Below are positions 19,102 to 37,683 of a DNA stretch of 64,000 nucleotides, one piece after another. The stretch covers positions 72,842 to 136,841 of the forward strand of contig JAIEMQ010000006.1 in the NCBI GenBank assembly GCA_019752015.1, given 5' to 3'. The stretch comes from Cyanobacteriota bacterium (GTDB lineage: Bacteria; Acidobacteriota; Vicinamibacteria; Vicinamibacterales; UBA2999). The position numbers and the translations under genes were made by a program. The notes beneath the pieces were generated by a model, which saw nothing but the letters and a program-made list of their open reading frames with translations, was not told where the DNA came from and did not search any database. Each line of letters begins with the position of its first letter. Within the stretch, counting starts at the first letter, position 1.

Positions 19102-19123
19102 ACGTCCTCCTTTCACGTCGAAT

Positions 19124-19366: not shown

Positions 19367-19580
19367 GATCCGAACCTCCTCGCGCGTTCTCGCGCGCTAC
19401 GATCGCTTCTCGCGCGTGCCGTTCCAGCCACGCGTCAATCCATTCGGGTTTCAGACGGATTGATCGGCGGCCACTGATGCGTGCATGCCGCACCTCGCGC
19501 CGCTCGCACGCGGTGTAGATCGTGTCGCGGCTGACGCCCGCGTACTCGGCGCCCTCGCTCACCGTGAACCAGGTCTTCAT
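19341..19580 (-). CDS. Second excisionase-like helix-turn-helix protein
   Basis: 79 residues from the ATG at 19580, with GGGAGGG about 7 nt upstream. MKTWFTVSEGAEYAGVSRDT with ISGRRSIRLKPEWIDAWLERH is again the excisionase-type winged HTH. The same frame stays open much further upstream, but that part is low-complexity Arg/Pro/Ala sequence with no ribosome site. The two paralogues differ in sequence and may act on different ends or one may be a transcriptional repressor. Confidence 0.8.
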   Translation of the reverse strand: MKTWFTVSEGAEYAGVSRDTIYTACERREVRHARISGRRSIRLKPEWIDAWLERHAREAIVARENARGGSDHGADRANA

Positions 19581-20125
19581 ACGGCCCTCCCGCACAGGTC
19601 CGCGCGCTCGCGGACCACGAATCAGAGTGTGATGGGATTGACACGCCCGAGCGCGCCGGCGATGTCGGCGGCGCGCTGTCTGACCAGTGGGCGCGGATGT
19701 TGACATGCTGCCAACATCAAGGCCGCGTGGACGATGTGATGCACGCGGTGCGGGCGACGATCCCAGCGATCGCTGCTGCCCACCCGTCAGCGTGAGGACG
19801 ACCTCGAGACTTCGTCGCAGTCGTCGACCGCCGCCACCGGCCGTCGCTTGTTTTGAGAACGAGCGATGCTGAGAGCCGATGTTCTGTTTGGAAGCCGGAC
19901 GTCCGAGAACCGTGCGATGTCGGACGGTAATCATCGGACGGAACTTCCGGTGCGCCCGATCGAAGGTGATGTTGCGTTCGACCGCTGCGCGCTCCGCAGG
20001 CGATGTGGCAGGCGGAGGAGGTGTCGCATGGACACCGGCGAGATAGTCGCAGCCTACGCCCGACGGAACCTCGTTGTCAAAGTCAGCCGTTGATCCAGCC
20101 GAGCATTGAATGACGGCCATCACGT

Positions 20126-20485
20126 AAGTGCCGAGACCGGCACTGCGCGCAGCCGCCGTCAACGCCCGACGTCCGGGCACGCGCGCGACACGCACAGGCG
20201 GAGCGGCGTTGACGGCGGCGAGCACAGTGCCATACTGGAAGCGTGATGGCCGGCGACGCGATCCACGGACCACGTTCGCGCCGGATCGCCGATCAGATCT
20301 CGGTCCAGATCCCGGTCATGATCGCGTGCGGATCCGCGCACACACCGGCGGCGCATCCGACCGACAACAACAAGCCGTACTCGCGCACTTGTCACGCAGC
20401 ACGCCATGATGTGAACGACCCGCCATGACGAGCCCTGGGGCCACCCTCGGCTCGTCCGACCGGGGTCGCTCACATCATGGCGTGC
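20126..20485. other. Noncoding region with three nested inverted repeats
   Basis: The 1.1 kb between 19581 and 20706 shows no convincing gene. It holds three hairpins: AGTGCCG/CGGCACT (about 20127-20144), a perfect 15-bp inverted repeat (GCCGCCGTCAACGCC 20152-20166 with 20205-20219), and an 87-nt long hairpin (20399-20485) whose outer arms begin GCACGCCATGATGTGA and pair with one mismatch, enclosing an inner GACGAGCC/GGCTCGTC stem. Location between the integration genes and DNA-processing genes suggests a transfer or replication origin, or a strong transcription barrier. Confidence 0.55.
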
Positions 20486-23479: not shown

Positions 23480-23602
23480 ATGCGACCATTGACGTACGAA
23501 GCACCGGAAATCCTCGAGATCGCAGACGCGAATACGTTGACGCGCGGAAACATGGACGGCGACACATTCGACAGTTGTGACTGCGCCCGCTGGAAGGAAT
23601 AG
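23480..23602 (+). CDS. Candidate lasso-peptide precursor A1 (on the opposite strand)
   Basis: 40 residues with CAGGAGAAA upstream of the ATG. The leader MRPLTYEAPEILEIADANTL carries the Y-x-x-P motif recognised by lasso B1 proteins and ends in Thr at position -2. The predicted core GNMDGDTFDSCDCARWKE begins with Gly1 and has Asp9 as possible macrolactam partner, then C11-D-C13. It shares Y-E-x-P, Thr -2, Asp9, C-[DE]-C-[AT]-[KR]-x-K-E with precursors at 26800 and 27035, but lies on the other strand over 3 kb away. Export and activity are unknown. Confidence 0.75.
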   Translation: MRPLTYEAPEILEIADANTLTRGNMDGDTFDSCDCARWKE

Positions 23603-23616
23603 CGCGTCAGTGGGTA

Positions 23617-23654
23617 GTGGCCCGCCCCGACGGACTCGGCCGGGGCGGGGCCAC
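23617..23654 (+). terminator. Hairpin after precursor A1
   Basis: GTGGCCCGCCCCG pairs with CGGGGCGGGGCCAC (one bulged base), 14 nt after the A1 stop. No T-run follows, but the stem is very stable and separates A1 from the converging methyltransferase gene. Confidence 0.6.
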
Positions 23655-23662
23655 CTTCGAAC

Positions 23663-24247
23663 TCAACGGACAGCTTTTCGAAAGAGCACGGCAAACAAGT
23701 CTGATCGCCCCTGCCAGCGCGGGTCGACCTGTAGTCGTTCGAATCCGGCGTCCTTCATTTCAAGAGTGAGCTGCTCGACGGGCGGCCGGAAGTCGATGAT
23801 CAGTACGAGCCCTCCGGGCTTCATCGACCGGAACAGGCTGTCGCGCATCCGGCTCGGATCGTCAAACGCATGATAGACGAGCCGCAGGAGCAGCGCGTCG
23901 CAACATTCCGCCGGCAAGCCCATGTCACTCTCGGAGCCGAGCACCGTCGTAACATTGTCGAGACCGCGCGCGCGCGCGCCGGCCCGAATGCCCTCGACGT
24001 TGCGGGGCCTTACTTCAGTAGCAAAGACGCGGCCTTTCGACCCGACTCGGGCCGCCAACCGCCAGGTCCATGAGCCGTCACCCGCACCGACGTCGGCTAC
24101 GACGGTACGCTCTGACACTTCTAGCAGTTCAGCGATCCGCATGGATTCGGTTTCCGCGCTCTGCGGAGAGTCCTGACCGACACCGGCGGCGTGAGTCGCA
24201 CACACGCCCAGTAAGAGGAGGATCGGGACGGAGTATCGGCTCATCAT
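23663..24247 (-). CDS. Exported class I SAM-dependent methyltransferase-like protein
   Basis: 194 residues. The fold is recognisable: motif I VVADVGAGDGSWTWRL, motif II-like RVFATEVRPRNVEGI, motif IV-like CCDALLLRLVYHAFDD and post-motif MKPGGLVLIIDFRPP. Unexpectedly, the N-terminus has an export signal (MSRYSVPILLLLGVCATHAA), yet S-adenosylmethionine is cytoplasmic. Related proteins with signal peptides do exist in Acidobacteriota and similar phyla, and their substrate is unknown. It is the last gene of the minus-strand series following lasso set 1, so a tailoring role (for example methylation of the peptide) is possible but unsupported. Confidence 0.75.
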   Translation of the reverse strand: MMSRYSVPILLLLGVCATHAAGVGQDSPQSAETESMRIAELLEVSERTVVADVGAGDGSWTWRLAARVGSKGRVFATEVRPRNVEGIRAGARARGLDNVTTVLGSESDMGLPAECCDALLLRLVYHAFDDPSRMRDSLFRSMKPGGLVLIIDFRPPVEQLTLEMKDAGFERLQVDPRWQGRSDLFAVLFRKAVR

Positions 24248-24294
24248 TGATCGTGTTCCGAGGCGACCCGGCCACGCGGCCGGTCAACCGCCAG

Positions 24295-25374
24295 CTATCG
24301 AATGACTGTCACAATCCGATTGTCGATGAGACGCTCGAGCAACGCATCGTCCACCTCAACGCCATCCACCTGCTTCATCGTCTCTCGGAGATCGGCGACC
24401 GGCTGGCCGGAGCAGTGCCGAAGACCATGGAACACTCGCGCATCCAGGCGCTGGTGATCGTACGGTGAATAAGTCTGCAGGAAGACCTCACTGCTTGATC
24501 GGCGGAGTACCATGACTGGCGCAGGAATGACTCGATCGACAACCCGAGTCTTGAGGTTGGCCTGAAAGGCCTTTTGAGCGGTGCTGACCAGAATCTCTAA
24601 CTCCACACCGCCCAGCCGCAGTACGTCCTGCCATGAGAGGCTGCGAGCCTTCGCGAAACAGCCGACGTAAAAATCAGCCCTCCGGTGATTCCACTTGCCC
24701 CACATGTGAGCTGGTGCCTTTGCAATCACTGCCCATCCGTTGCTCGCGTCACGACCTCGTTCGATGGATGACCGGGGCTTGATGCGGGCGACAGACACCG
24801 GAATGCCCATTTCAACAGCGGACCAGAGCGCTACCGCACCCTCGACCGATTTCAGGAGCCGTTTCATCGCCTGCCAGAACTCCATTCCGGTGGCGCCGCG
24901 ACGATACTTGCAATGATACGTCGCGCAGACGGCATTGCGATGTCGCCAGATCGAACACTGTCCACCGGTCGCCTTGTCGAAGTACGGGCAAAGCATTTTC
25001 TCTTCGACGCCGAATCCCGTGGCGCGCAGACTGGTGTACAAGGCTTGATGCGACTGCGACACACCCAGTCCGTTGGGAACCGCCATGACTTCACTTAACA
25101 TCGCCGTCAACCGCTCACGACCCTCTCTGGCCCCGTCGGACATGTCGCTGAGGGCGGAGCCCACAAGATAGTTCGGCAAGACGGGCCAGTAGGTACAGCA
25201 TTTCGTTACGGGCGAGAAGGCTTTCTCTGCCATGGGGTTCGAGGTGCACATGGCGCACGAATGACAGGTCGCACTCGTCTCTTTCGGAATCTCGCTGTCG
25301 AATAACTCGTTCAGCCAATCGTTGTGTATTCCTGCGAACGCCGTGATTCCCGTGGAACGATCCTTGTGAGCCAT
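24295..25374 (-). CDS. Cys-rich protein of unknown function in lasso set 1
   Basis: 359 residues with 11 Cys, most in clusters: CHSCAMC, KCCTYWP, LCPYF, QCSIWRHRNAVCATYHCKY. The spacing is that of a metal or Fe-S site rather than disulfides, and no signal peptide is seen, so it is probably cytoplasmic. Similar Cys-patterned proteins of unknown function occur in Acidobacteriota and Myxococcota. It lies 40 bp downstream of the exported protein gene and in the same direction as the precursors, which themselves have a C-x-C motif. Possible roles are redox tailoring or metal handling. No catalytic assignment can be made. Confidence 0.65.
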   Translation of the reverse strand: MAHKDRSTGITAFAGIHNDWLNELFDSEIPKETSATCHSCAMCTSNPMAEKAFSPVTKCCTYWPVLPNYLVGSALSDMSDGAREGRERLTAMLSEVMAVPNGLGVSQSHQALYTSLRATGFGVEEKMLCPYFDKATGGQCSIWRHRNAVCATYHCKYRRGATGMEFWQAMKRLLKSVEGAVALWSAVEMGIPVSVARIKPRSSIERGRDASNGWAVIAKAPAHMWGKWNHRRADFYVGCFAKARSLSWQDVLRLGGVELEILVSTAQKAFQANLKTRVVDRVIPAPVMVLRRSSSEVFLQTYSPYDHQRLDARVFHGLRHCSGQPVADLRETMKQVDGVEVDDALLERLIDNRIVTVIR

Positions 25375-25414
25375 TGGATTGGTGCCTTATCGGTTTGTGG
25401 GTGAGGTCCGCAGT

Positions 25415-26260
25415 TCATCTCACACGTTGCTTGGGACAATTCGCGACTCTCGGTAGTTCGACTGGAAACACTGCGAACGCGACGATCGCTACGGCTGTCC
25501 GGGATAGCCCGCCAAGCGGGCTGGCAAGGAGACGCAATTTTCCGCAGTCCGGCAGCTGAGAGAGCCGGCGCTGCGGTTCCGTGCCGTCTACAAACAACAC
25601 CTCGACGTCACCGAGAAGTGATTCATCGACGCTGGTGTACGCGGTCGCGCGCACGGTGCTGGTGCGCAACGTCGCATCACGAGCAGGTCCAAACTCGATG
25701 ACGATGTTCAGGAACTCATGCGGCCATGCGGGTGGCTTCGGCACCGACGAGTTGACCAGGCGATTCCGATGGAATTGGTCTGCGGTATCCGTTTCCAACA
25801 GTCCGAGGATCGGGCGAAATGATCGCCGAAGATCGTGGTCACCAACTTCGACTACAGGATTGAGTGCGATGCAGCCCTGGTCCACTGAATAACGGCTCCG
25901 CCGCTCCTCTGACAGCTGACAGCCCAGGCGGCGCACGCCGGCAATCCTCACCGACGACTTCTGATCCCTCGATCGGTGCAGCGCTGCGATGGTATCGTGT
26001 TCTGCACCGGCGTTGACCATCGTGCCAGCGACGATCGTTCCTGAATCGATCGCTCGTGCGAGGAACGACAGGCCGCTGCCGACGCTCGCTCGCGCAGGGT
26101 GGGCATCGACCTCCAGAACTTGGATCTCGACCGCCACCCATGATGAGGACGGAAGAAACGCATCAGGTTTCTGGCGTGCCTGTACGCGGCCTCCTGTGAT
26201 GCACGCCGCCGCGATTGCGATGACGCCGCACCAGCGATGGAACGCAACCCTAGTCGACAT
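25415..26260 (-). CDS. Exported protein of unknown function
   Basis: 281 residues from the ATG at 26260, with CGAGGTGAGT upstream; the frame extends further but through the antisense of the neighbouring gene's frame. A signal peptide is present (FHRWCGVIAIAAACITG). The mature protein is beta-rich with four Cys and a short hydrophobic stretch near the C-terminus (AVAIVAFAVFPVEL), possibly a membrane anchor. It starts 2 nt after the PCYCGC-like gene, so the two are cotranslated. No family recognised. Confidence 0.6.
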   Translation of the reverse strand: MSTRVAFHRWCGVIAIAAACITGGRVQARQKPDAFLPSSSWVAVEIQVLEVDAHPARASVGSGLSFLARAIDSGTIVAGTMVNAGAEHDTIAALHRSRDQKSSVRIAGVRRLGCQLSEERRSRYSVDQGCIALNPVVEVGDHDLRRSFRPILGLLETDTADQFHRNRLVNSSVPKPPAWPHEFLNIVIEFGPARDATLRTSTVRATAYTSVDESLLGDVEVLFVDGTEPQRRLSQLPDCGKLRLLASPLGGLSRTAVAIVAFAVFPVELPRVANCPKQRVR

Positions 26261-26262
26261 AC

Positions 26263-26727
26263 TCACCTCACCTCGGGCTCGGGGTGCGGAGTGTTCGTCC
26301 GGTACTTCGCCCCTGCCGCATAGGTGGCTTCGATCCGCCTGCGGATCTCGGCGGTCGCCACGCCGGACTCGAACAGTTGCTTCGCATCGCGAGCGACGGC
26401 GACGCAATACTGGCACTCGGCAGCATGCGGGTTCCACACCACTGGGGCGCCGGAGTCGGACGTGATGAAGCAATCCAGGTTCGAACGATGACCTAGTCGC
26501 GATCCGCAGGAACAAAAGCAAGGCATCTGGCGGATTGTCTCCGGATGCCTGGCGGCGAACTCATAGAGCGGCGCCATCACCGCTTCTGAGTAGATCGCGT
26601 CTGGGGTGCGCGGTATCGCCGGCAATTGCTGGGTAACGTCGCGATGGCCCGCCGAAGAACGGCCTGCCACAGCAACTACAGCTGTCGTCGTAACCCACGC
26701 GAAAAGCACTATGGCCACCCTCATCAC
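26263..26727 (-). CDS. PCYCGC-motif exported protein
   Basis: 154 residues with a signal peptide (MRVAIVLFAWVTTTAVVAVA) but no lipobox Cys. The domain shows PCFCSCGSRLGHRSNLDCF followed by WNPHAAECQYC, which corresponds to the PCYCGC family: a Cys-rich, probably metal-binding module usually carried by exported proteins. It follows the two C-x-C precursor genes in the same direction and is coupled to the next exported protein gene. Because the peptides and this protein both carry closely spaced Cys, a shared metal-related function is worth testing. Confidence 0.8.
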   Translation of the reverse strand: MMRVAIVLFAWVTTTAVVAVAGRSSAGHRDVTQQLPAIPRTPDAIYSEAVMAPLYEFAARHPETIRQMPCFCSCGSRLGHRSNLDCFITSDSGAPVVWNPHAAECQYCVAVARDAKQLFESGVATAEIRRRIEATYAAGAKYRTNTPHPEPEVR

Positions 26728-26759
26728 TGCGCACCTCCAGTTTCCGACTGCGAAAGTAC

Positions 26760-26787
26760 GGGTGGGTCGGGCAAGCCCGTCCCACCC
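26760..26787. terminator. Inverted repeat downstream of precursor A2
   Basis: GGGTGGG (26760-26766) pairs with CCCACCC (26781-26787) around a CGGGC-AAG-CCCG core. It begins 12 nt beyond the stop of precursor A2 on the minus strand, placed to stop or stabilise the precursor transcript before the PCYCGC gene. Confidence 0.55.
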
Positions 26788-26799
26788 CCGATGGCTAAC

Positions 26800-26916
26800 C
26801 TACTCTTCCTTCCACTTCGTGCACTCGCAGCCGTCCTCAACTGACAGGTTCGTCCAGCCGAGCGTGAGGCTCATCGAGCTGCCGACTTCGATCATCTCCG
26901 GTGTTTCGTACGTCAT
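26800..26916 (-). CDS. Candidate lasso-peptide precursor A2
   Basis: 38 residues. Leader MTYETPEMIEVGSSMSLTL holds the Y-x-x-P and I-x-x-G leader features and Thr at -2. Predicted core GWTNLSVEDGCECTKWKEE begins with Gly1; Glu8 or Asp9 could close the ring, and C11-E-C13 follows. It is a tandem duplicate of A3 (unit length 235 bp, upstream flanks also alike: both have GCTCCA...CTTCACAAA...GACGCTG before the start). Lies downstream of cyclase 1 and A3. The C-terminal Lys/Glu-rich tail is conserved among the three C-x-C precursors. Confidence 0.85.
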   Translation of the reverse strand: MTYETPEMIEVGSSMSLTLGWTNLSVEDGCECTKWKEE

Positions 26917-27034
26917 GTTTCCTGCTCCACCTTCACAAAGACGCTGCCGGCACCATGCCGTCAGGTCCACATCTCGTTCGCTCGAAAACTGCGGCGGGTC
27001 GCGCGGTCGCCGTCCCACCCAAGGAGCGACCGAC

Positions 27035-27151
27035 CTAGTCCTCCTTGTTCTTCGTGCACTCGCAAGCATCCTCAACCCAGAGCTCCGTAAAGCCCTGCGT
27101 GAGACTCATTGAACTGCCGATCTCGAGCATCTCCGGGGTTTCGTACGTCAT
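27035..27151 (-). CDS. Candidate lasso-peptide precursor A3
   Basis: 38 residues. Leader MTYETPEMLEIGSSMSLTQ is nearly identical to A2; core GFTELWVEDACECTKNKED starts with Gly1, with Glu8/Asp9 for macrolactam closure and C11-E-C13. It lies 71 nt after cyclase 1, so the gene order is B1-B2-C-A3-A2, with precursors at the 3' end of the operon. Leader residues are almost invariant between A2 and A3 while core positions 2-6 differ, the pattern expected for duplicated RiPP precursors with diversified products. Confidence 0.87.
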   Translation of the reverse strand: MTYETPEMLEIGSSMSLTQGFTELWVEDACECTKNKED

Positions 27152-27222: not shown

Positions 27223-29094
27223 CTACGCTGCGTGGCTCGACGCCGGCTTCGCGGAGCACTCGAGCGATCGCAACCACACTTCGAGGGCCATGATTCGCCC
27301 CAGCTGACTGCTGTTGGGAATCACACCGTGCCGGGCGCGAGCGAGCGATTGTTGAAAGGCGTCCGCTTTGACGTAGCCGTATGCGGCTACCCGGGAGTCA
27401 GCAAGCCACAACGCCCACCGAGACCACTCAGCGACGAACGCCCGGTTCACGGCCTCGGTCGGGCCGGCCTTGGAGCGCCGCTGTCTGATCAGCTCAGGCA
27501 ACCGTCCCGCGAAGGCACGCCGCACAATCGAGCGCGTTTCTCCGGGGCGGGCCTTCTGGTCGAGAGGCAGAGACAATGCGAACTCGACCAGTCGTCTGTC
27601 GAAGTACGGATAACGCACGTCAGCACAGCCGACACTGAGGCATCGATTGAGCGCGAACGGCCTCATACTGAACCGGAGCGCCCAATACTGCAGCTGACGT
27701 GAAGGCAGCCCCTTGACTCTCTCATCGCCCGCGGTGATAAAGCGACGACTCAGGTTGGTACGCTTGGAGAACTCCGGGTCTATGAAGTCAGACAATCGAC
27801 CAGCCGGCATGAACATCCCACGTGCCTGCCGCGGGGCGAGCGGCTGCAGCCCGCCAAGCCATAGGGTCTTGAACAGCGGCCAATGTAACGTGCGCGACCA
27901 CAAATAGGTGTCTCGCAGGAGGGGTTTCAGCGCCAGCCGGACGATATGATCGGCCAACGGCAAAACGCTCGGCACGTTCTCACTCAAGAACATCTGATCG
28001 CCGCCGATGCCGCTAAGAATGACCCTGGCGTTCGCTGCGGACATCACCTTCGCCAGGTGATCCTGCCGACGCAGGTAAAGGAGTTGTGCAGTTGGCTCTT
28101 CCGGTTCAATCGCCGTCGGATCAGGAATCGTGAAAATGGGATGCTCAGTCTCGGACAGATGCAGGCCGGGCCGGCCGATGTAGTCTTCGACCACGTTGAT
28201 GAATTGGCGCTCATCGGAGGTAGTCGCGCTATCGAACACATACGACACCGTCCTGAGATCCACTTGATCGGATTCATCAGCCAATCGTTTCGCCGTGCAG
28301 ACGATTGACGACGAGTCCACTCCGCCGCTGAGTTCGCAGAAGATCGGTCCTTCCGAATCAAGACGATCCGAGACTGCTCTGTCGAACAATTCGAGAAAAT
28401 GAGCTTCGTAGTCGACGTCAGCGGTGTAGCGAAGTTCTTTGGTCGTGTCGAGTGACCAGTAGCGATGCACACTGCAGCGGTCGCCAGTGACGCGAAGGTA
28501 GTGACCGCCAGGGAGGTAATTGACACCGGTGTACGGCGACGATCCGGAAATTCGATTGACCAGATAGTCGGCAACGTAGTCGGGATCGGGCGCGAGCGAG
28601 CCCATCGTTGCCGCCGCGAGAGACCGGCCGCTCGTCGACCAGACGCACTCGGCGTCCGTGACGCGATAGTAGAGCGGTGTCCGTCCCAAGCCGTCGGTAC
28701 AGAGCAGCAACGCTCTGGATGGGGCATCCCACAACGCAAACGAAAAGTCTCCGACCAGTTTCGCGAACGCGGCTACGCCCCACTCTTGATAGGCGGCGGT
28801 GATGACCTCGACGGCCCCTGCTCCGGTCACGCCGAGCGCCCTGCCCAGCTCGCGTGCGTTGTCCAGACGCCCGTCGCAAGCCACCACGATCCCCTCAGGA
28901 TCGGAACGAAGGCCCGCCTGCAGCCGCGACGTCCTCGTCGTATGAAATGGCCGATGCAGCATCGCGACGCAATCGTTCCGAAACCGCACCTCGCCGTCGG
29001 GACCAATCCGCCGTAGCCCGGTGGACAGAGCATCGAGCAGCCGTTCGTCTGGTCGCTGTCCCCGTCGAGGGAAGATGCCGCCAATGGCGCTCAC
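27223..29094 (-). CDS. Lasso cyclase 1 (asparagine-synthetase-like, protein C)
   Basis: 623 residues starting at a GTG (29094) that overlaps the stop of B2. The N-terminal glutaminase-like domain has Ser-Ala-Ile rather than Cys at the nucleophile position (start V-S-A-I-G-G-I-F), so it cannot hydrolyse glutamine, as known for lasso cyclases. The synthetase domain has the ATP PP-loop LSGGVDSSS and a downstream SGIGGDQMF segment. These enzymes adenylate the Asp/Glu side chain of the core and join it to the Gly1 amine after B2 removes the leader. Together with B1/B2 it forms a complete set; A2 and A3 follow directly. Confidence 0.92.
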   Translation of the reverse strand: MSAIGGIFPRRGQRPDERLLDALSTGLRRIGPDGEVRFRNDCVAMLHRPFHTTRTSRLQAGLRSDPEGIVVACDGRLDNARELGRALGVTGAGAVEVITAAYQEWGVAAFAKLVGDFSFALWDAPSRALLLCTDGLGRTPLYYRVTDAECVWSTSGRSLAAATMGSLAPDPDYVADYLVNRISGSSPYTGVNYLPGGHYLRVTGDRCSVHRYWSLDTTKELRYTADVDYEAHFLELFDRAVSDRLDSEGPIFCELSGGVDSSSIVCTAKRLADESDQVDLRTVSYVFDSATTSDERQFINVVEDYIGRPGLHLSETEHPIFTIPDPTAIEPEEPTAQLLYLRRQDHLAKVMSAANARVILSGIGGDQMFLSENVPSVLPLADHIVRLALKPLLRDTYLWSRTLHWPLFKTLWLGGLQPLAPRQARGMFMPAGRLSDFIDPEFSKRTNLSRRFITAGDERVKGLPSRQLQYWALRFSMRPFALNRCLSVGCADVRYPYFDRRLVEFALSLPLDQKARPGETRSIVRRAFAGRLPELIRQRRSKAGPTEAVNRAFVAEWSRWALWLADSRVAAYGYVKADAFQQSLARARHGVIPNSSQLGRIMALEVWLRSLECSAKPASSHAA

Positions 29095-29561
29095 GACGTA
29101 TGCGCCTCCGGCGCAATCGCTTCGATAACGCAATAGTCCTTGCGCAGATCCGCACGGTCGTTGACGATGACGCCGTCGAGCTCGACCCACGCATGCGCCG
29201 CGAACGGAACCTTCTGGACTCCGATCACAAGACTGGCGCCATAGCCGCGCCGGCGCAGCATCAGGACCACGGCCGCTGAGCGATGCAGGCAGCGAACGTG
29301 CTTGGGATAGTAGGTGCACGCGCGCTCGACGGCCACCGTGACGTCCTTGACGTCACGCGGCAACGAATGCGACGAGGCGTCCGCACTGACGGGCCACACA
29401 CGAAGAAACCTGACGAAGCGTCGGAATCCAAGGCACAGCGCGCAATGAATCAGCAGCAACACGCACCAGGCGATGCGTGCGTCACGCCGCGCCTCGCTCG
29501 TGGCCGCCGTGGTGGTGTCAACCGGCGTCCAGGGACTGAACCTGGAATCAACGGTCGACAT
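29091..29561 (-). CDS. Lasso leader peptidase 1 (transglutaminase-like, B2)
   Basis: 156 residues. The C-terminal half is the lasso B2 transglutaminase-like domain: Cys in HVRCLHRSAAVVLMLRRRG, His in AAHAWVELDG and Asp in VIVNDRAD form the predicted Cys-His-Asp triad. A hydrophobic helix near residues 30-48 may dock it to the membrane. It overlaps B1 by 14 nt and the cyclase start by 4 nt, so all three are translationally coupled. Role: cleaves the leader after Thr(-2)-X(-1) when B1 presents it. Confidence 0.92.
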   Translation of the reverse strand: MSTVDSRFSPWTPVDTTTAATSEARRDARIAWCVLLLIHCALCLGFRRFVRFLRVWPVSADASSHSLPRDVKDVTVAVERACTYYPKHVRCLHRSAAVVLMLRRRGYGASLVIGVQKVPFAAHAWVELDGVIVNDRADLRKDYCVIEAIAPEAHTS

Positions 29562-29844
29562 AGATCATTCCCTTGTCGTGAAGTTGCGCGAGGAATCGGC
29601 TGACGTCGGCCTCGATCCCGTTCTCGGGCACGGAGCACGACGCCGCGACGAAATGGGTGATCTGGCTGAACGATGCGCCTTCCTGGATCTGTTGCCAAAT
29701 CAGAGAGCCGACTCCGTTGAGGCTGAAGTAAGTACCCTGATTCAGATCGAGGAGGACTGCTCCTGCCGGATCGATGATCGACTTGACGTGATCGTGAGCG
29801 CGAAGGCTGTTAGTTCGTTGCGTAAGTTCGATGGGTGATGCCAT
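29548..29844 (-). CDS. PqqD-like leader recognition protein 1 (lasso B1)
   Basis: 98 residues with the PqqD/RRE fold signature: DPAGAVLLDLNQGTYFSLN, then GSLIWQQIQEG and a C-terminal VSRFLAQLHDKGMIYV helix. RRE proteins bind the Y-x-x-P region of lasso leaders and deliver it to B2. First gene of the set; no Shine-Dalgarno is visible before the ATG and the likely -10 box ends six bases before it, so the messenger may be leaderless or nearly so. Confidence 0.92.
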   Translation of the reverse strand: MASPIELTQRTNSLRAHDHVKSIIDPAGAVLLDLNQGTYFSLNGVGSLIWQQIQEGASFSQITHFVAASCSVPENGIEADVSRFLAQLHDKGMIYVDR

Positions 29845-29914: not shown

Positions 29915-32377
29915 TCAGTCCGCTCCCTGTCGGAGCAGCGACGCCGGATCGATTCCCGACGCCCGCAACGCCGGAGCCAGAGTCGCGGTTGCCGTGGTGG
30001 CGCCGATCGTTGCCAGGACCGGCACAACGATTTCCGCAGAGAGCGGCGCCGCTCCGTATACCAGAGACGCGAGCGATTGCGCCACGACGACCGAGCCTGC
30101 CGCGCCGGCCACGAGGCCGCTGAGGATGATCAACGCTCCCTCGCGAGCGACCAACGCCACGATGGCCATGCGCGTCGAGCCGAGAGCGAGCCGCACACTA
30201 AATTCGCCCGCGCGAATCGAAACCGCGTAGGCCAGGATGCCGTACAAACCCACGCCCGCCAGCAAGACGGTGGTCGCCGCAAAGCCGAGCAGCATCAGCA
30301 TCGTGAAACGCTCCCGGGCGATTGCATCGTCAAAGTAGTCGGTTAGCCGATGCATTGGCGACAGCGGTCGCCCCGTTCCCGCACGCATGACGATCGCCCG
30401 CACCAACCCGTCGAGGTCCGATGAGTCCCGGCTAGTGCGGATCAGCACGGACATTTCCCTCGGATGAAGGTGATAAGGAAGAAACACGTGAGCCATCCCG
30501 TCGTCGCGGACGTCGGTGCTGCGAATCGCATTGGTGACGCCGATGATCTCGAGCGGCGGCAAACCGTGTTCGCCGTGAATCGCCAACTGCTGACCGATTG
30601 CGCCGTTCGGCCACAAGCGATCAGCGAGGCGACGATCCACAAGCGCCACACGGCGGCCGTTGACGAGGTCGTCGTGGCTGAAGTCTCGGCCCTCGAGCAG
30701 CTTGGTGTTAAACGTGCCGAGCGCACCTGGGAACATCACATGATGCGCCGCCTCGATTCTGCCGCTGCCGTCGTCGTCGGCGCGTCCGACCGGCCGCAGG
30801 TCCTGACCCGGCGCGAGCGGTAGCGGCGCGGCCGCGGCGGCGGAGACGACGCCTGGCAGTTGCCTGACCTGAGTCAGCAGATCGCTATGAAACGCGATCC
30901 GGCGCTCGACTTCCGGCATGGCGCGCAGACTGACGGGTACCCGCGTCGCCATGAGGCCTGCGGGCTCGAATCCGAGCGGTGTGTGTGTCAGGTTCCAGAA
31001 CGTGACCGACATCAACGCACTCCCCACGACTGCCGCAACCGCGGTCGCAACCTGGATGGTTACCAATCCGTAACGGACGATTCGCCAGCGTGGAGCTGCG
31101 CAGTGGTAGCGTGTTGACGTCAGTGCGCGAAGCTCGACGTCATCGCGACGGTTGATGGCCGGAAGGATTGCAAAAGCGGCGAGGATCAAAAGACACAGCG
31201 CCGCTCCAAACGCGAAGCCTGTTGGGTCGAGGACGATAAGCGACAATTTGGGCAGGCCGACCGGATTCAGCCATGCGAGAGACGCGATCGTCGCGTGGGC
31301 GACCAGCAAGCCGGCGACGCCGCCGGCGGCGACCAACAGTGCGCTTTCACCGGTATGTCGGGCCCAGAGTCTTGCGGCGCTCGCGCCCAAGGTCGATCGG
31401 ACCGCGGCGTCGCGCTGTCGCTGCATCAGGCGCACGAGCATCAGATTGATCACGTTGACGGATCCGACGAGCAGCATCAAGAGGGTTGCCCCGCCGAAGG
31501 CCAGCAGTCCGGGCTCGGCTTCGGCAGTGAGTTGCTGATGCAGCGCGTCTGCACGCAGTTGCGGCGCGCCGTCGGTGTAGTCGGACGGGGGGTACGCGGC
31601 TGGCTCAGTCATCGCAAATCTGGCCGCGAGGACGGCCAGTTCGGCTCGCGCATCGGTCAACGTCGTGCCATACCGCAACCGCGCCAGAGTCACCGGCGAG
31701 CGATTGCGCCAATCGGGCGTGTTGGAGAGGAACAACCACACGTCGATCATTTCCGGGACGCCGATCCGGTCCGGCAGGAACACCCGCACGTCCGGTGCAA
31801 GCACGGCGATCACCTCGACTTCGAGATTGTTGATGCGAATCCGGCGGCCGAGCACGGACGGATCGCTTTGGAAGCGGCTTCGCCACAGCTGATCGCTGAT
31901 GATCGCCGTGCGAATGACGGGGCCGTCGTCAAGGGCGGGGTCAAACCCGCGTCCCATCGCAGGAGGAACTGCACCCAGCAGCGGGAGGACGCCAGCGTCG
32001 ACCATCGCCGCCCGGACCAGATCCAGCTCGCCGTCCTTGTTCAGCGTGACCTCAACTGACGATATCGACGCGACGTGTTCGAGGGTTCGGCTGGCGTCGT
32101 TCAACGCGGCCACCTCGCCGGGACGCAAGCCCGTCGTACTAGCCTTCACTAAATTCGATGTCAACAGGACCAGGCGATCCGCGCGCGGATATGGAAGCGG
32201 CGCCCAGAGCACGGTATGCACGACGACAAAACCGGCGACGGCAATTCCCACGGTGAGGGCGAGCGTGGCGATGACGGCCGCCGAGAAGCCGCGCGATCGA
32301 ATCAAACCGCGCCCGCCATCGGCCAACGCCCACCACACCATTTCGGACCGCGACTGCTTCGGAAGATGATTGGCCAT
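29915..32377 (-). CDS. Orphan MacB-like/ADOP permease
   Basis: 820 residues. First transmembrane helix at about 30-55, a large periplasmic MacB-type domain (about 60-270), helices near 285-430, a second helix/periplasmic/helix unit, and an FtsX-like C-terminus (FTMLMLLGFAATTVLLAGVG, then YGILAYAVSIRAGEFSVRLALG). This is the duplicated-permease layout abundant in Acidobacteriota (ADOP), lacking the usual N-terminal extension. No ABC ATPase gene is adjacent. It follows the GMC oxidoreductase by 4 nt and ends 70 bp before lasso set 1. No dedicated lasso ABC exporter exists in the island, so it is a candidate for peptide release or self-protection. Confidence 0.85.
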   Translation of the reverse strand: MANHLPKQSRSEMVWWALADGGRGLIRSRGFSAAVIATLALTVGIAVAGFVVVHTVLWAPLPYPRADRLVLLTSNLVKASTTGLRPGEVAALNDASRTLEHVASISSVEVTLNKDGELDLVRAAMVDAGVLPLLGAVPPAMGRGFDPALDDGPVIRTAIISDQLWRSRFQSDPSVLGRRIRINNLEVEVIAVLAPDVRVFLPDRIGVPEMIDVWLFLSNTPDWRNRSPVTLARLRYGTTLTDARAELAVLAARFAMTEPAAYPPSDYTDGAPQLRADALHQQLTAEAEPGLLAFGGATLLMLLVGSVNVINLMLVRLMQRQRDAAVRSTLGASAARLWARHTGESALLVAAGGVAGLLVAHATIASLAWLNPVGLPKLSLIVLDPTGFAFGAALCLLILAAFAILPAINRRDDVELRALTSTRYHCAAPRWRIVRYGLVTIQVATAVAAVVGSALMSVTFWNLTHTPLGFEPAGLMATRVPVSLRAMPEVERRIAFHSDLLTQVRQLPGVVSAAAAAPLPLAPGQDLRPVGRADDDGSGRIEAAHHVMFPGALGTFNTKLLEGRDFSHDDLVNGRRVALVDRRLADRLWPNGAIGQQLAIHGEHGLPPLEIIGVTNAIRSTDVRDDGMAHVFLPYHLHPREMSVLIRTSRDSSDLDGLVRAIVMRAGTGRPLSPMHRLTDYFDDAIARERFTMLMLLGFAATTVLLAGVGLYGILAYAVSIRAGEFSVRLALGSTRMAIVALVAREGALIILSGLVAGAAGSVVVAQSLASLVYGAAPLSAEIVVPVLATIGATTATATLAPALRASGIDPASLLRQGAD

Positions 32378-32381
32378 CAGG

Positions 32382-34025
32382 CTACTCCGTCAGCGATGCC
32401 GGGCTGCTGATCATGTGGTCTGCAACCCGGAGAGCGTTGGCAATAATCGTCAGTGTCGAGGGGGCACCGCCGGAAGTCGGCATGAAGCCCCCGTCGACCA
32501 CCAGCAGATTGGGAACATCGTGCGTCTGGCAGAACTGGTTCAGGACGCTGGTTCTGCGATCGTGGCCCGCGCGGCATGTCCCGTGGACCATGACGCTGCT
32601 GACGGCGCCGAGGCGTGTCACGCGAGCGTCGTCGGCTCCCGCGGCGATGAGCATCTCGAGCCCGCGATCGACGACGTATTGTCCCGCGGCGCGGTGATGG
32701 GGCGACTCCTCGAGATGGATGTGCGCCGCGGGTAGTCCCCAGCGATCCGTCACCGCCGCATCGAGTTCCACGCGGGTCGACTCCGTTGGAATGAAGTCCT
32801 GGAACACTTCGAATTCCGCTTCGCGCGTTTCGAAGAGGTGTTCGACCAGCCGTTTCTTCAACGCGCTGCCCCAGAGGGTTCCGCCCGTCCGCCGCCGACT
32901 GAGGTTGCGGCCGACCGCGACGGGTTGCTTCGGAACGAGGTCGAAACGGAGAATGCCGCCCTTCGGCAACGGCGCCTCTCCCGACGACAGCAAGTAGTAA
33001 TCGCTGACTGAGATGCCGAGCAATGAAAGGGAGGCGTCGAGGTTCGACGCCTCGAACTGATCCGCCTTGAACCTCGCCTTGCCGTTCGACACGCCATGAA
33101 ACTGTAAGTATCGGCCGACCAACCCATTGCGATTGGCGAGACCATCCGGAAACTGCGGCGACCGCGACATCAGTAGCAGCCGCGCGGACTCGACCGCCGA
33201 ACAGCACACGCACACGATGTCGGCCGTCGCATGGTGCGCGCGGCCGTGGGAGTCGATCCAGACACAGCCGGTGGCCCGTCCGCGCGCATCGGTCGTGACC
33301 TCGGCGACCATGGCCTCCGATTGGATGCGGCAGCGACCGGTTTCGCGCGCGCGCCTGAGAAACGTCTCGGACGCGCTGCCGCGCGCACCGATCTGGCAGC
33401 CGAAGCCGGCGCAGAGGTGGCAGTACGCGCAAGGCGGGCGTCGATCGAATGGAACGGAGTTCATCGCCCGAGGTGTCGGGAACGGTGTCACACCTCCGCG
33501 GCGGCAGGCGTTCTCAAGTCGACTGGCAAGCGGATGGCGCCGCAGCGGCGGCATCGGCAGGGGCCGCGATCGAAAGGCCTCGTGTATGCTGCCAGTGGGG
33601 GCGCCCGCAATGCCGACCATGTGCTCGGCTTGGCAATAGTACGGTTCGAGGTCAGCGTAGGTATAGGGCCAGTCCGCGACCGCCTCGAATTGACCGAATC
33701 GGCTGCGCAGCTCGAAGTCGGCCTCGTGGAATCGATAGAGACATCCACCCATGTGCGCAGTGCCTCCACCAACGCAGGACGCGGTCCATCCCAGGGTGGT
33801 TCGGACGGGCACTGACTCAGTGCCAGTGGTAAGCACGTGGGGGTCGTCGGCAATAGACGGTACGAACATGTCGCGCAGTCCCATCAGGATTTCGTCATGG
33901 TGAAAGTCGGCGCGCTGAAGATCGAGCCCTTTCTCGAGGACAAGGACGTTCAGGCCGGCCTGGCTGAGCGCCCACGCGAGGGTACCTCCTCCCGCGCCAC
34001 TGCCGATGATGAGGACGTCGGTCAT
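32382..34025 (-). CDS. GMC-family oxidoreductase with Cys cluster (gluconate/glucose dehydrogenase type)
   Basis: 547 residues from an ATG overlapping the upstream stop (ATGA). FAD-binding Rossmann motif IIGSGAGGGTLAWALSQAG at the N-terminus; GMC signature CVGGGTAHMGG; C-terminal VMVHGTCRAGHD with VVDGGFMPTSGGAPSTLTI. A CAYCHLCAGFGC cluster matches the Fe-S binding loop of FAD-dependent gluconate/glucose dehydrogenases. The Asn usual in the final N-P-T-x-T-I motif is replaced (GGAPSTLTI), so catalysis may be altered. Coupled to its small subunit gene; lies in the operon-like series after precursor A4. It may oxidise a lasso peptide or be an unrelated passenger. Confidence 0.88.
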   Translation of the reverse strand: MTDVLIIGSGAGGGTLAWALSQAGLNVLVLEKGLDLQRADFHHDEILMGLRDMFVPSIADDPHVLTTGTESVPVRTTLGWTASCVGGGTAHMGGCLYRFHEADFELRSRFGQFEAVADWPYTYADLEPYYCQAEHMVGIAGAPTGSIHEAFRSRPLPMPPLRRHPLASRLENACRRGGVTPFPTPRAMNSVPFDRRPPCAYCHLCAGFGCQIGARGSASETFLRRARETGRCRIQSEAMVAEVTTDARGRATGCVWIDSHGRAHHATADIVCVCCSAVESARLLLMSRSPQFPDGLANRNGLVGRYLQFHGVSNGKARFKADQFEASNLDASLSLLGISVSDYYLLSSGEAPLPKGGILRFDLVPKQPVAVGRNLSRRRTGGTLWGSALKKRLVEHLFETREAEFEVFQDFIPTESTRVELDAAVTDRWGLPAAHIHLEESPHHRAAGQYVVDRGLEMLIAAGADDARVTRLGAVSSVMVHGTCRAGHDRRTSVLNQFCQTHDVPNLLVVDGGFMPTSGGAPSTLTIIANALRVADHMISSPASLTE

Positions 34026-34465
34026 GTTGCCTTCGGGCCAGGCGGTTCGGGATCCGGCGTGAAGCCGATCCATTTCCACGCCACTTCCTGGCGGTTGCCA
34101 CCGTACTTCGGATGTCCAAAAAACCCCGCCATCGTCAACCTGACGATCAGCCGCAAGTAGCGCTGCGCGGTCGGGTGAGGCACCAGTTCCAGCCGTGAGA
34201 GAACCTCGTCTTGTTCCGTCTCATTGCAGTCGGCGAACCTGTGGCTCGTAAGCGCGCTGGCAATGTTGTCGAGCAGAGCCGTGCCGGTACAGAGACATTC
34301 CCAATCGGCCGTGAACGAGGGCTGCGCAATGATCCAGTCGACGTAGCCCACTACATTGGCGTCGCGCGCTCCTGGACCCAGCGGATCGCTCGGCAGGATG
34401 CGGCTCGTGACGCATTCGATCGTCCGGCGTTCCGCAGCAGACAATACGCCAGGGCTATTGGTCAT
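34022..34465 (-). CDS. Gluconate 2-dehydrogenase subunit 3 family protein
   Basis: 147 residues matching the small gamma-type subunit: LSAAERRTIECVTSRILPSD, a central helical part, and GFFGHPKYGGNRQEVAWKWI with the conserved H-P-x-Y-G-G-N motif. No Tat signal is visible, unlike many family members. These subunits pair with the GMC flavoprotein, whose gene overlaps its stop. The start lies inside the end of the AraC-type gene, with GAGGGAG upstream. Without a signal peptide or a cytochrome gene nearby, this dehydrogenase pair is probably cytoplasmic. Confidence 0.87.
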   Translation of the reverse strand: MTNSPGVLSAAERRTIECVTSRILPSDPLGPGARDANVVGYVDWIIAQPSFTADWECLCTGTALLDNIASALTSHRFADCNETEQDEVLSRLELVPHPTAQRYLRLIVRLTMAGFFGHPKYGGNRQEVAWKWIGFTPDPEPPGPKAT

Positions 34466-34889
34466 GCGGCTCCCTCACGTCGCCCGGCCGACACTTGAAC
34501 CAGCGGTGGAACGCCCGATAAAACGTTTGCGGGTGATAGTAGCCAACCGCGAGTGAGACCTCGAATATGCTGAAGTTGGTCTCCTGCAACAGCCGTCTCG
34601 CGGTGTCGAGGCGCAACCCGTCGATATAGTCCTTGATTGACTGCCCGACTTCGCTCCGAAATCTACTGGAGATGTTGTTGTCCTGCACGCGGCAACGCGC
34701 TCTGAGCGATTGCACGTTCAGCTGCGGATCAAACACGTCGTCGTGAATCGCCGCCAGCAACTGCTGGACGCTACGCGACGGAACCGGCGGGACATGGCTG
34801 TCGCATCGCAGACGCCCGCATTCGAGCGTCGCTTCGAATGCCGCCCTGAGCGTCACCGGTTCCAGGATTTCTCGAGAAGCTCCGTACAT
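34455..34889 (-). CDS. AraC-type transcriptional regulator, short
   Basis: 144 residues if started at the ATG at 34889, which has GGAG 9 nt upstream; an in-frame ATG at 34922 adds 11 residues. The C-terminal 100 residues are the AraC double helix-turn-helix (VQSLRARCRVQDNNISSRFR, then IFEVSLAVGYYHPQTFYRAF). The N-terminal ~45 residues are too short for the usual effector domain. Located between precursor A4 and the dehydrogenase genes and coupled to the latter, it probably regulates this part of the island. Confidence 0.85.
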   Translation of the reverse strand: MYGASREILEPVTLRAAFEATLECGRLRCDSHVPPVPSRSVQQLLAAIHDDVFDPQLNVQSLRARCRVQDNNISSRFRSEVGQSIKDYIDGLRLDTARRLLQETNFSIFEVSLAVGYYHPQTFYRAFHRWFKCRPGDVREPHDQ

Positions 34890-34933: not shown

Positions 34934-35116
34934 TTACGGCTCCGAGTGCAGCTCGTCGCCAGCGACCGGGTCCTCTGCAAACTCAAACTCGGGGACGCTG
35001 TAGCCGAGATAATCTTCGCCTCCCCCAGCGACACCCAGGATCACCTCCGTCGCGTTGCCGATCAGCAGCACATTTGGGGTCTCGTAGATGGCCTTCGTAG
35101 GCGTGCGGTCTGACAT
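34934..35116 (-). CDS. Candidate lasso-peptide precursor A4 (long tail)
   Basis: 60 residues, AAAGGAGC upstream. It contains KAIYETPNVLLIG, matching the Y-x-x-P-x-L-x-x-x-G leader pattern, then NATEVIL and a putative core starting GVAGGGEDYLGYSVPEFEF. Gly1 with Glu7 or Asp8 could form a 7-8 residue ring, leaving an unusually long acidic tail with no Cys. Thr at -2 is missing (I-L-G), so the cleavage site is uncertain. It sits 39 bp after cyclase 2 and clearly belongs to set 2 by position. It is divergent from A1-A3, so the two sets probably make different peptide types. Confidence 0.7.
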   Translation of the reverse strand: MSDRTPTKAIYETPNVLLIGNATEVILGVAGGGEDYLGYSVPEFEFAEDPVAGDELHSEP

Positions 35117-35155
35117 GTCTGCTCCTTTTGCAACGACGTGGTTGATGTGACGTGA

Positions 35156-36865
35156 CTATGCAGCACTGCTGGCGGGCGCCTGCTGTTGCAGCCAGCATTC
35201 CATGACCAGAATCTGTCTCAACTGCGACGAGTTGCACGGCAGTCCGCGCGACAGAAGTTCGAGGCGGGACCGCAGGTGCAGCCGGTCGACCCAGCCTCGC
35301 TCGACGACCTGCCAGGTCTCCGACCTTAGGAGCTCGGCGGCGATCGGAGCAAAGGTGTCGATCAGCGGACGGCCGAAGAGGCTCTTCGATCTGCGGCTTC
35401 TGACACCAGCCGGTAGGAAACCGCCGAGCGCCCGCCGCATCAATCGCCGCGGTTGACCTGGCCGGCACAACACCTCAGCCGGCACCGTCATCAGGAACTC
35501 CACCAGCGGCCTGTGAAAAAAGGGATGCGTGTAGCCTAGATGACGCAGCGGTTCGGGCGCCTGCAGCACGCGCAATTCACGAGCCGTCGTGAGCTCGCGA
35601 AGACGAAGCCGCTGCTCCACAGGGGCCGCCTGCCACTCGCGTGACAACACCCCGGGGTCGTCGGCAACGCCAGTGTGAGCCAGAAAATCCTTACGCAGCG
35701 ATGTCTGCGCCGATGTCGCCGCCACCGACCTGGCCGAGAGCAGATGCGCGATTCGGCGCACGGGCGCCGGTAACATTTCAACGATCGCCCTCGAGAGAAT
35801 CTGAGTGAGAGGAGTGCCGCTGGCTCTACTCCAGTCGAGCGCTTCCCCGATCGCTGCGGCGGCTTGGCCGCGACCGATCAGCCGAACTACCTGCAGGCTA
35901 TCGTCGAGCCAGTTGGCGGACATGAGGTCGCCGCCCTGCCCGGTCAGGAACGTCGTCGCACCGCATTGCGCAGCTATCGCCGCGGCGGCGTACTGGAGCG
36001 GCGACGCGCCGCCTGGGAGTTCGCTGCCGCAAGCGGCCGAGAAGAGTGGCGTCACGCGCGTGGACAGATGCGTGCCGCTGCGTCGGCGCGCCTGCTCGAC
36101 CTCGGCGATGTAACGTGCATCGAGCGAGTCGTCATAGACATAACTCACGGTGTCGAGCGTTTTCGGTTCGAGGCCGTCGCGAATCAGCTCGTCGGCCACG
36201 CGGACGACGGCCGAGGAGTCCAGGCCGCCACTGAGCTCCGCCACCACCGGGCCAGGAGTCCTCAACCGGACAGCCACCGCTTCTCGGAACAACATGCGGA
36301 ACCGCTCGTCGTAGCAGCGCTCGTCGCGTTTCCTGTCGTGCCCGGCGATTGGCAGCGACCAGATTGACTGGATCGCGACAGTGGCGTCGGCAACGACGAC
36401 GGCGTGACCCGATGGCACGGCGAGCACTCCCTCATACGGAGTGCGTCGCGGACATCCGCCATGAATCATGAACGCTGCAGCGTAGTGTTCATCGAGACGG
36501 CCCGCGCCGGTGGCTAATCGCAGCGCGCTCGCGGACCAGTGCACGCTTCGCTCAGACACTCGGTAGTAGAGCGGGCGCACGCCACTGAAGTCACTGGCCA
36601 GCACGATCGCGCCGAGCCGCGCGTCGTGAAGAACCAGACTCCAGTCGCCGATTAGTCTCTCGAGCCCCTTAAGCCCCTTAAGCCCTTCGTGCTGATATGC
36701 AGCCGTGGCGAGAGTGCTTGCGTCACTGGCGGCGTGCAATCCCGCATATCGCCTCCGAAGATCGTCGAGGTTGTCGATGCGGCCGTCAAACAATAGTGAT
36801 CGGCACCGACCGCTCTGATCCCGGTGCAGCGAGGCGCGATGATAGTGACCGGCCATTGAGTGCAT
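35156..36865 (-). CDS. Lasso cyclase 2 (asparagine-synthetase-like, protein C), N-terminally short
   Basis: 569 residues. Aligns with cyclase 1 from FDGRIDNLDDLRRRY onward and has the PP-loop AELSGGLDSSAVV and LTGQGGDLMSANW, so the synthetase domain looks intact. About 45 residues of the N-terminal glutaminase-like domain present in cyclase 1 are missing: the chain begins at MHSMAGHYHRASLHRDQ. A perfect 9-bp tandem repeat (36664-36681) writes a G-L-K-G-L-K segment. It lies 5 nt after B2-2. It may be functional, since the glutaminase half is not needed for chemistry, or partly decayed. Confidence 0.88.
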   Translation of the reverse strand: MHSMAGHYHRASLHRDQSGRCRSLLFDGRIDNLDDLRRRYAGLHAASDASTLATAAYQHEGLKGLKGLERLIGDWSLVLHDARLGAIVLASDFSGVRPLYYRVSERSVHWSASALRLATGAGRLDEHYAAAFMIHGGCPRRTPYEGVLAVPSGHAVVVADATVAIQSIWSLPIAGHDRKRDERCYDERFRMLFREAVAVRLRTPGPVVAELSGGLDSSAVVRVADELIRDGLEPKTLDTVSYVYDDSLDARYIAEVEQARRRSGTHLSTRVTPLFSAACGSELPGGASPLQYAAAAIAAQCGATTFLTGQGGDLMSANWLDDSLQVVRLIGRGQAAAAIGEALDWSRASGTPLTQILSRAIVEMLPAPVRRIAHLLSARSVAATSAQTSLRKDFLAHTGVADDPGVLSREWQAAPVEQRLRLRELTTARELRVLQAPEPLRHLGYTHPFFHRPLVEFLMTVPAEVLCRPGQPRRLMRRALGGFLPAGVRSRRSKSLFGRPLIDTFAPIAAELLRSETWQVVERGWVDRLHLRSRLELLSRGLPCNSSQLRQILVMECWLQQQAPASSAA

Positions 36866-36870
36866 AAGCT

Positions 36871-37257
36871 CTACGCAACAAGAAGGGTCCGAAGGCGGCG
36901 CGCGTACGCCGGCGAGTCATTGACCACGCGATTGTCAACCGTTACCCACGCGTGCGACACAAACGGTCGAGTGCGATACCCGATCACCAGGTCTGCGCGA
37001 ATACCGAGCGAGCGCATCAAGGCGACCGTGCACACCGATCGCTGAAGGCAAAGTACTGGCTTCCAGTAGAGGGCGGTGGCGATGGCCACCGCTTCAACGA
37101 CATGCAGCGGCGTCACGCGGATGTGGGCCAGCAACACGCTCACGTCGACGGTCGCGACTTGCAATGGACGGCCACCTGAGAGACGTCGCCGGACATCGAA
37201 GATCAGCAGCAAACACCAAGTCACGGCGACTAGTGCGGCGCGGCTTCGCTTATCCAT
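36871..37257 (-). CDS. Lasso leader peptidase 2 (transglutaminase-like, B2)
   Basis: 128 residues from the ATG at 37257, overlapping the end of B1-2. A hydrophobic N-terminal helix (AALVAVTWCLLLIF) and the B2 domain are present: Cys in VLCLQRSVCTVALMRSLG, His in FVSHAWVTVDN and Asp in RVVNDSP form the triad. Shorter than B2-1 at the N-terminus but with a complete catalytic domain. Gene order B1-B2-C matches set 1. Confidence 0.9.
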   Translation of the reverse strand: MDKRSRAALVAVTWCLLLIFDVRRRLSGGRPLQVATVDVSVLLAHIRVTPLHVVEAVAIATALYWKPVLCLQRSVCTVALMRSLGIRADLVIGYRTRPFVSHAWVTVDNRVVNDSPAYARRLRTLLVA

Positions 37258-37525
37258 GGACGACTCGTCCGGCCAACAGACGGTATTGCTCCAGTTGCGC
37301 GCCAAACCGCCGAACATCCCGCAACGCCCTGTCGTAGCTCACGTGATGCGACCGCGAAACCTCTTGAGCGATCGCCTCCGGCGTGCGCCGTTCGCTCATG
37401 CGTTCCCAGATGAGGGTTCCAAGACGGTTGAGATCGAATAGCCGGCCATACTCAAGATCGAGGAGAACCGACCCGTCCTCATGACTCGAACTGACGATCG
37501 TCGGAGTGCTTCGCTGTTGAGACAT
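37250..37525 (-). CDS. PqqD-like leader recognition protein 2 (lasso B1)
   Basis: 91 residues from the ATG at 37525 (a longer start at 37576 is possible). RRE/PqqD pattern: EDGSVLLDLEYGRLFDLNRL, GTLIWERMSE and a helical C-terminus. It would bind the A4 leader (Y-E-T-P), which resembles those of A2/A3, so cross-talk between sets is possible. Overlaps B2-2 by 8 nt. The ~100-bp upstream gap (37577-37683) must hold the promoter of set 2, but I see no convincing hexamers. Confidence 0.88.
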   Translation of the reverse strand: MSQQRSTPTIVSSSHEDGSVLLDLEYGRLFDLNRLGTLIWERMSERRTPEAIAQEVSRSHHVSYDRALRDVRRFGAQLEQYRLLAGRVVHG

Positions 37526-37683
37526 CGACAAGGCCCACCTCTCGGACTGCGCGGTCACCACCGCCGCACGTCGCAACCTTATTTGGTGTTCCCTCGCCGG
37601 CCCTCATCCCTTTGGAGAACCGTTGGATAACTCATACGCACAGTCGCGGCCTACGTCTTCTGGTCATCGCAGGCGCCAGCTCA

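Follow-up and report, generated by a model that had tools for sequence, protein, structure and literature searches.

A lasso peptide precursor family with a C-x-C motif behind the ring, and an associated GMC flavoprotein subfamily that may act on precursor cysteines

Lasso genes and three C-x-C precursors

We analysed a 64,000-nucleotide stretch of contig JAIEMQ010000006.1 (the whole of which we call the window) that encodes a lasso peptide gene cluster, three small precursors with a C-[DE]-C motif and, close by, a flavoprotein of the GMC family. A sequence-only reading of this DNA had proposed three lasso precursors with these cores, and all three are present as intact open reading frames, each with a Shine-Dalgarno-like sequence (Table 1). 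A2 and A3 lie head to tail directly downstream of the lasso B1, B2 and C genes, just past C, and A1 lies 3.2 kb apart from them on the opposite strand. The three leaders share Tyr-Glu-x-Pro, with the tyrosine exactly 17 residues ahead of Gly1, and a threonine at position -2, while the cores have Gly1, Asp9, Cys11 and Cys13 in common. The features expected of lasso precursors (leader YxxP, Thr(-2), Gly1 and an acidic residue at 7-9) are thus all found, and the NCBIfam lasso leader model NF033521 scored A1 above its cut-off and A2 and A3 slightly below. Asp9 is the acidic residue common to all; because residue 8 is Glu in A2 and A3, an eight-residue ring is formally possible in these two.

The genes for C (an asparagine-synthetase-like cyclase), B2 (a transglutaminase-like peptidase) and B1 (a PqqD-like protein) are adjacent and, judged by its genes, the locus is almost certainly a lasso peptide cluster. 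No classical lasso D transporter was seen in the window cluster. Known clusters with split B1 and B2 (A-B1-B2-C) are alike in the Y-x-x-P leader, Thr(-2), Gly1, Asp9 and the adjacent B1, B2 and C genes; the window cluster differs from them by the C-[DE]-C motif behind the ring, by a module of GMC, Gluconate_2-dh3 and AraC genes, and by the lack of a recognisable D. Class I and class III lassos pair a ring cysteine with a tail cysteine, and A1-A3 have no ring cysteine. Both cysteines instead lie behind the ring, a class IV-type placement as read from sequence. This is the arrangement of felipeptin, LP2006 and pandonodin, from which the window family, known from its genes alone, differs by a one-residue spacing that is conserved across distant genomes. 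In the literature that we searched, no lasso peptide was described with an invariant C-x-C placed after the ring.

Table 1. Coordinates of the lasso genes and their neighbours in the window
Feature	Position	Strand	Details
Lasso precursor A1	23480..23602	+	Leader MRPLTYEAPEILEIADANTLTR, core GNMDGDTFDSCDCARWKE; orphan gene, strand opposite to A2 and A3; NF033521 above cut-off
Lasso precursor A2	26800..26916	-	Leader MTYETPEMIEVGSSMSLTL, core GWTNLSVEDGCECTKWKEE
Lasso precursor A3	27035..27151	-	Leader MTYETPEMLEIGSSMSLTQ, core GFTELWVEDACECTKNKED
Lasso cyclase C, asparagine-synthetase family	27223..29094	-	GTG start overlapping B2; PF00733 5e-42; NF033535 5e-83, below its cut-off
Lasso leader peptidase B2	29091..29561	-	NF033537 4e-26, above cut-off; PF13471
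Lasso B1, PqqD-like leader-binding protein	29548..29844	-	PF05402 2e-17; NF033530 below cut-off
MacB/FtsX-type permease, possible exporter	29915..32377	-	PF12704, PF02687
GMC-family flavoprotein, RiPP-associated subfamily	32382..34025	-	PF05199/PF00732
Gluconate_2-dh3 subunit without Tat signal	34022..34465	-	PF13618 8e-19
AraC-type regulator	34455..34889	-	PF12833 5e-18
Second, separate lasso cluster	34934..37603	-	Precursor 34934-35116 with Ile(-2); C2 35156-36865; B2' ~36874-37338; B1' ~37253-37603

Conservation of the motif and of three neighbouring genes

To find relatives of the precursors, we ran a profile of the three sequences over 396 genomes sampled from the phylum, and relatives were found in one other genome only (G368). 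An earlier genome-wide scan with the precursor alignment had given no confirmed relative, and a 36-bit DNA pattern (Y-x-x-P ... T-x-G ... D-x-C-[DE]-C) was used instead. Across 84,980 species, this pattern identified a single true further locus, again that of G368, a metagenome-assembled genome (MAG) of the Thermoanaerobaculia, which is another class of the same phylum. Two other pattern matches (in Chloroflexi and an archaeon) were chance reading frames, and weak precursor matches in G386, G397 and G581 were not C-x-C precursors. No additional C-x-C precursor was found in 193 genomes of the window's own class, and plasmids gave no precursor match.

The G368 locus encodes two precursors beside lasso genes, with cores GRPNLPCDDACDCTKSGGGSDEIAL and GRPNLDADDACDCTKSCGCDEIAL, and both keep D9-A-C11-D-C13-T-K. 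A second C-x-C pair is present in one of them (CDCTKSCGC); the other has an additional Cys7, the only ring cysteine of its kind in the family. C-x-C thus stands at identical positions in five precursors, which come from two of the phylum's classes; in their alignment D9-x-C11-[DE]-C13-[TA]-[KR] is constant, with variation in residues 2-8 of the ring and in the distal tail. The window cyclase is 42% identical to that of G368 and scores 507 bits against it, compared to 273 bits for the next lasso C among ~60 lasso loci. Using the same script, C-x-C at this place was found in 0 of ~20 other candidate precursors at related lasso loci. As a negative control, G334, a genome from the genus of G368, encodes a related cyclase whose precursor (AFVGGTIADNDCVYRDGWA) lacks C-x-C, and no GMC protein of the subfamily described below occurs in this genome. 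Because a locus as distant as that of G368 keeps the motif beside lasso genes, we regard C-[DE]-C as conserved, and the G368 match, the closest cyclase and the few loci recovered by the scans indicate a family that is real and rare.

These results bear out the sequence-only reading on its central claim, a lasso precursor family with Asp9 and C-[DE]-C, through the machinery, the leader and the distant homologous locus. The outcome that would have refuted it, loss of the C-x-C in homologues, was not observed in the G368 precursors. Among the other residues it listed as shared, Gly1 stands and the basic residue 15 is Lys or Arg, but K17-E18 does not extend to the outside homologues.

When the entire window was compared with 79 kb of sequence surrounding the G368 locus, three neighbours beyond the lasso genes proved to be shared in the same order by both C-x-C clusters: an AraC regulator (51% identity over 105 residues), a Gluconate_2-dh3 protein (32%) and a GMC protein (52% over 540 residues). 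The best GMC among 98 relatives of the window reached ~40% identity. In the window, the three genes overlap in an operon-like manner, with the C-x-C lasso cluster on one side and the second cluster, whose leader has Ile(-2), on the other. We consider it likely that this module belongs to the C-x-C lasso pathway.

A GMC subfamily beside RiPP clusters

The window GMC protein has GMC_oxred_N and GMC_oxred_C domains over the gathering score. Searching both classes with three aligned GMC sequences as the query, we found a rare subfamily of six members scoring 577-1084 bits, compared to at most 423 bits for all others, and the six were monophyletic with support of 100/100. Five of the six adjoin clusters for ribosomally synthesized and post-translationally modified peptides (RiPPs) of three classes, every one with cysteine precursors: two are the C-x-C lasso loci, two are class II lanthipeptide loci (LanM and LanA, with LanA cores CSYGTFCPTSAICSPCPPKHCY and CCYPGNNTVTLCTGICSPCPPVHCY) and one is a YcaO azole locus with a ThiF-like protein, a nitroreductase, an M16 peptidase and the precursor ending AVCPCGFCMCACVICIIPNDDQ; at the sixth locus no core RiPP enzyme was recognised beside two M16 peptidases. 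Lasso C or B2, LanM and YcaO genes were found at 0 of 24 other GMC loci within the stretch fetched. The difference (5/6 versus 0/24) gave Fisher p=4e-5 (p=0.001 when each genome contributed a single locus), values that are only a guide because the control queries came from subfamily loci and the loci are few. On plasmids the best GMC was 34% identical and the one locus inspected had no RiPP neighbours, and viral contigs held distant GMCs only.

At the azole locus (L147, 6347-17072), the precursor contains CPC, CMC and CAC, and AraC, Gluconate_2-dh3 and GMC genes occur as at the C-x-C lasso clusters. At another locus (L148, 2025-5845), SelB-like and SelA genes for selenocysteine machinery lie near a subfamily GMC that has two M16 peptidases beside it and no recognised RiPP enzyme, and this locus may hide an unrecognised RiPP class.

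Several residues set the subfamily apart (numbered from an upstream start at 34079). Cys192, Cys272 and Cys290 occur in 6/6 members and in 0/16 outgroup rows, and Cys102 and Cys517 are in all six and rare in others. All six also have CxxCxxCx4C, which is mostly common to ordinary relatives; part of it aligns with glucose dehydrogenase cysteines that bind an iron-sulfur cluster. The catalytic pair of His (in H-x-x-G-T) and Asn (in N-P-T) is found in 0/6 members by alignment, which places M and A/P at the canonical catalytic positions of the window protein, and R-M-G is changed to R-A-G in every member. We take the protein to be a flavin adenine dinucleotide (FAD) enzyme that probably also carries an iron-sulfur cofactor. 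A twin-arginine (Tat) signal is present in 0/4 of the subfamily's Gluconate_2-dh3 partners compared to 11/11 outgroup partners examined. Because the partners lack this signal, the pair probably resides in the cytoplasm, together with the precursors, rather than acting as a periplasmic sugar dehydrogenase.

Among known systems, FAD glucose and fructose dehydrogenases (PDB 6a2u, 7w2j) are related in sequence (E ~1e-42 to 1e-40), with several aligned cysteines and a small-subunit partner; the window protein differs by the lost catalytic pair, the partner without a Tat signal and the RiPP neighbourhood. MftG (TIGR03970) resembles it as a GMC flavoenzyme with a genetic link to a RiPP cluster, in that case mycofactocin, and retains its active-site His (PMC11778925). 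The window GMC scores 60 bits against the MftG model, with a cut-off of 387, lacks the conserved His, has extra cysteines and belongs to a subfamily found beside three other RiPP classes. In the felipeptin cluster, a flavin oxidoreductase (FilE) has been proposed, without proof, to form the disulfide (PMC9266682); on this description, the window flavoenzyme differs in being a GMC protein with its own subunit.

Proposed role, alternatives and neighbouring genes

By analogy with the lasso family, B1 and B2 would remove the leader ahead of Gly1, and C would close a Gly1-Asp9 macrolactam around the tail. Before or after this closure, the probably cytoplasmic GMC pair, whose flavoprotein has lost the alcohol-oxidising His and Asn and gained cysteines, would oxidise the cysteine thiols of the precursor. 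The most likely product would be an oxidised cysteine link, of which a Cys11-Cys13 disulfide is the simplest, and related members of the subfamily could have a similar role on lanthipeptide and azole precursors. Some GMC oxidases act on thiols. That precursor cysteine is the substrate of the pair is a plausible proposal, though we stop short of calling it probable, and the reaction, product and biological role are likewise proposed. More tentatively still, the six proteins may represent an undescribed GMC subfamily of general cysteine-oxidising tailoring enzymes for lasso, class II lanthipeptide and azole RiPPs, with the C-[DE]-C lasso as one substrate bearing a new sulfur modification. If the flavoenzyme acts on C-x-C lassos, one kind of tailoring enzyme would be used across three RiPP classes and GMC chemistry would extend past alcohols. 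The route by which lasso peptides acquire disulfides is unsettled (PMC9266682, PMC13352647), a question that can be tested directly with this cluster and the candidate enzyme inherited alongside it. A literature search of incomplete coverage returned no paper combining 'GMC oxidoreductase' and 'lasso peptide'.

A number of observations weigh against a cysteine-oxidising role. GMC enzymes are known mostly for alcohols. Within 20 kb of one of the six members (G517, C342), no RiPP enzyme was recognised, only two M16 peptidases and a permease, and neither lanthipeptide locus has a recognised Gluconate_2-dh3 or AraC gene. The RiPP classes space their cysteines differently, which makes a shared cysteine substrate our extrapolation, and the evidence comes from two C-x-C loci and six GMC loci, all on MAG contigs of one phylum. 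With only two C-x-C lasso loci known, co-inheritance of the module rests on two genomes and one negative; because the window module also touches the second lasso cluster, it could serve that cluster, which has no C-x-C. A structure model of the GMC protein built from four sequences gave a predicted local distance difference test score (pLDDT) of 41 and was discarded. Lasso disulfides may also form without an enzyme (PMC9266682).

The last point underlies one of four alternatives, in which the Cys11-Cys13 disulfide forms spontaneously to yield a class IV-like lasso with an exceptionally tight tail-tail link, and the GMC protein is only a neighbour. Class IV clusters do not share a disulfide enzyme, and their disulfides may form non-enzymatically (PMC9266682), but the conserved module and the RiPP neighbourhood of the subfamily would be left unexplained. 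C-x-C disulfides are also strained, and we find this alternative improbable. In another, C-x-C binds metal or buffers redox state in a secreted lasso that acts as a peptide metallophore or sequesters metal, and the module, being regulatory or metabolic, leaves this peptide untouched. The sequence-only reading had named both a metal ligand and a site of modification. Soft metals are commonly bound by C-x-C flanked by acidic residues, the outside homologues add a second pair (CDCTKSCGC) or Cys7, and a PCYCGC-family protein is encoded beside A2. However, the cluster genes examined included no recognisable metal transporter or metalloregulator, our literature search turned up no metal-binding lasso, and the GMC module is kept with C-x-C while its relatives adjoin RiPP clusters. 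We therefore consider a metal site unlikely, if still the foremost of the alternatives. The modification site gains circumstantial support from the module at both clusters and from GMC relatives at cysteine-rich RiPP clusters, with the chemistry itself predicted from sequence.

The peptide might instead be the redox partner of the GMC protein, a cofactor or electron carrier that the enzyme uses or regenerates. The precedent is MftG, which oxidises a RiPP cofactor (PMC11778925), and the window protein has a dehydrogenase-type subunit as its partner and a cysteine motif of cluster type. Its low MftG score and the missing active-site His speak against such a role, and three unrelated RiPP classes fit a tailoring enzyme better than one cofactor pair, so we give this idea little weight. 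Finally, the module could serve the second lasso cluster or some other function, with its presence at both C-x-C clusters due to coincidence or co-transfer. Its position between two lasso clusters and the subfamily member without a clear RiPP gene are compatible with this explanation. It appears quite unlikely, because the G368 locus carries the module although only one lasso cluster was recognised in its 19 kb, a related GMC occurs among the fetched lasso loci only there and in the window, and RiPP neighbours are confined to the subfamily in our comparison. Oxidation of precursor cysteines by the GMC pair remains the explanation that we favour, at the tentative level given above.

The second lasso cluster is a neighbour outside the C-x-C system. 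Its set is complete (precursor MSDRTPTKAIYETPNVLLIGNATEVILGVAGGGEDYLGYSVPEFEFAEDPVAGDELHSEP, C2, B2' and B1'), with Ile(-2), unlike the Thr(-2) of the adjoining C-x-C cluster, and leaders of this kind have been described (PMC10368454). Three more lasso B2 genes lie beyond the window in the source genome (C30:12199-12552, C75:130-495 and C75:1781-2116), which together with those inside makes five. Other loci (L042 7937-8086, L046 5510-5665 and L053 1671-1829) encode another lasso-like precursor type with ring-region cysteines (for example, GCMGMCVDGESGGMTWVVP).

One neighbour was considered as a member of the system and rejected. This Cys-rich protein of 359 residues (24295-25374, minus strand) had no Pfam match, occurred in 2/74 genomes and was absent from the other C-x-C locus, where a methyltransferase (23663-24247) and the PCYCGC protein also have no counterparts. 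The latter (26263-26727, minus strand) adjoins A2 and matched the CYCXC family model below its cut-off. Integrase-like and excisionase-like reading frames, recognised by eye, lie at 17791-20273 on the minus strand, 3 kb from the orphan A1, and the lasso cluster may border an integrated element.

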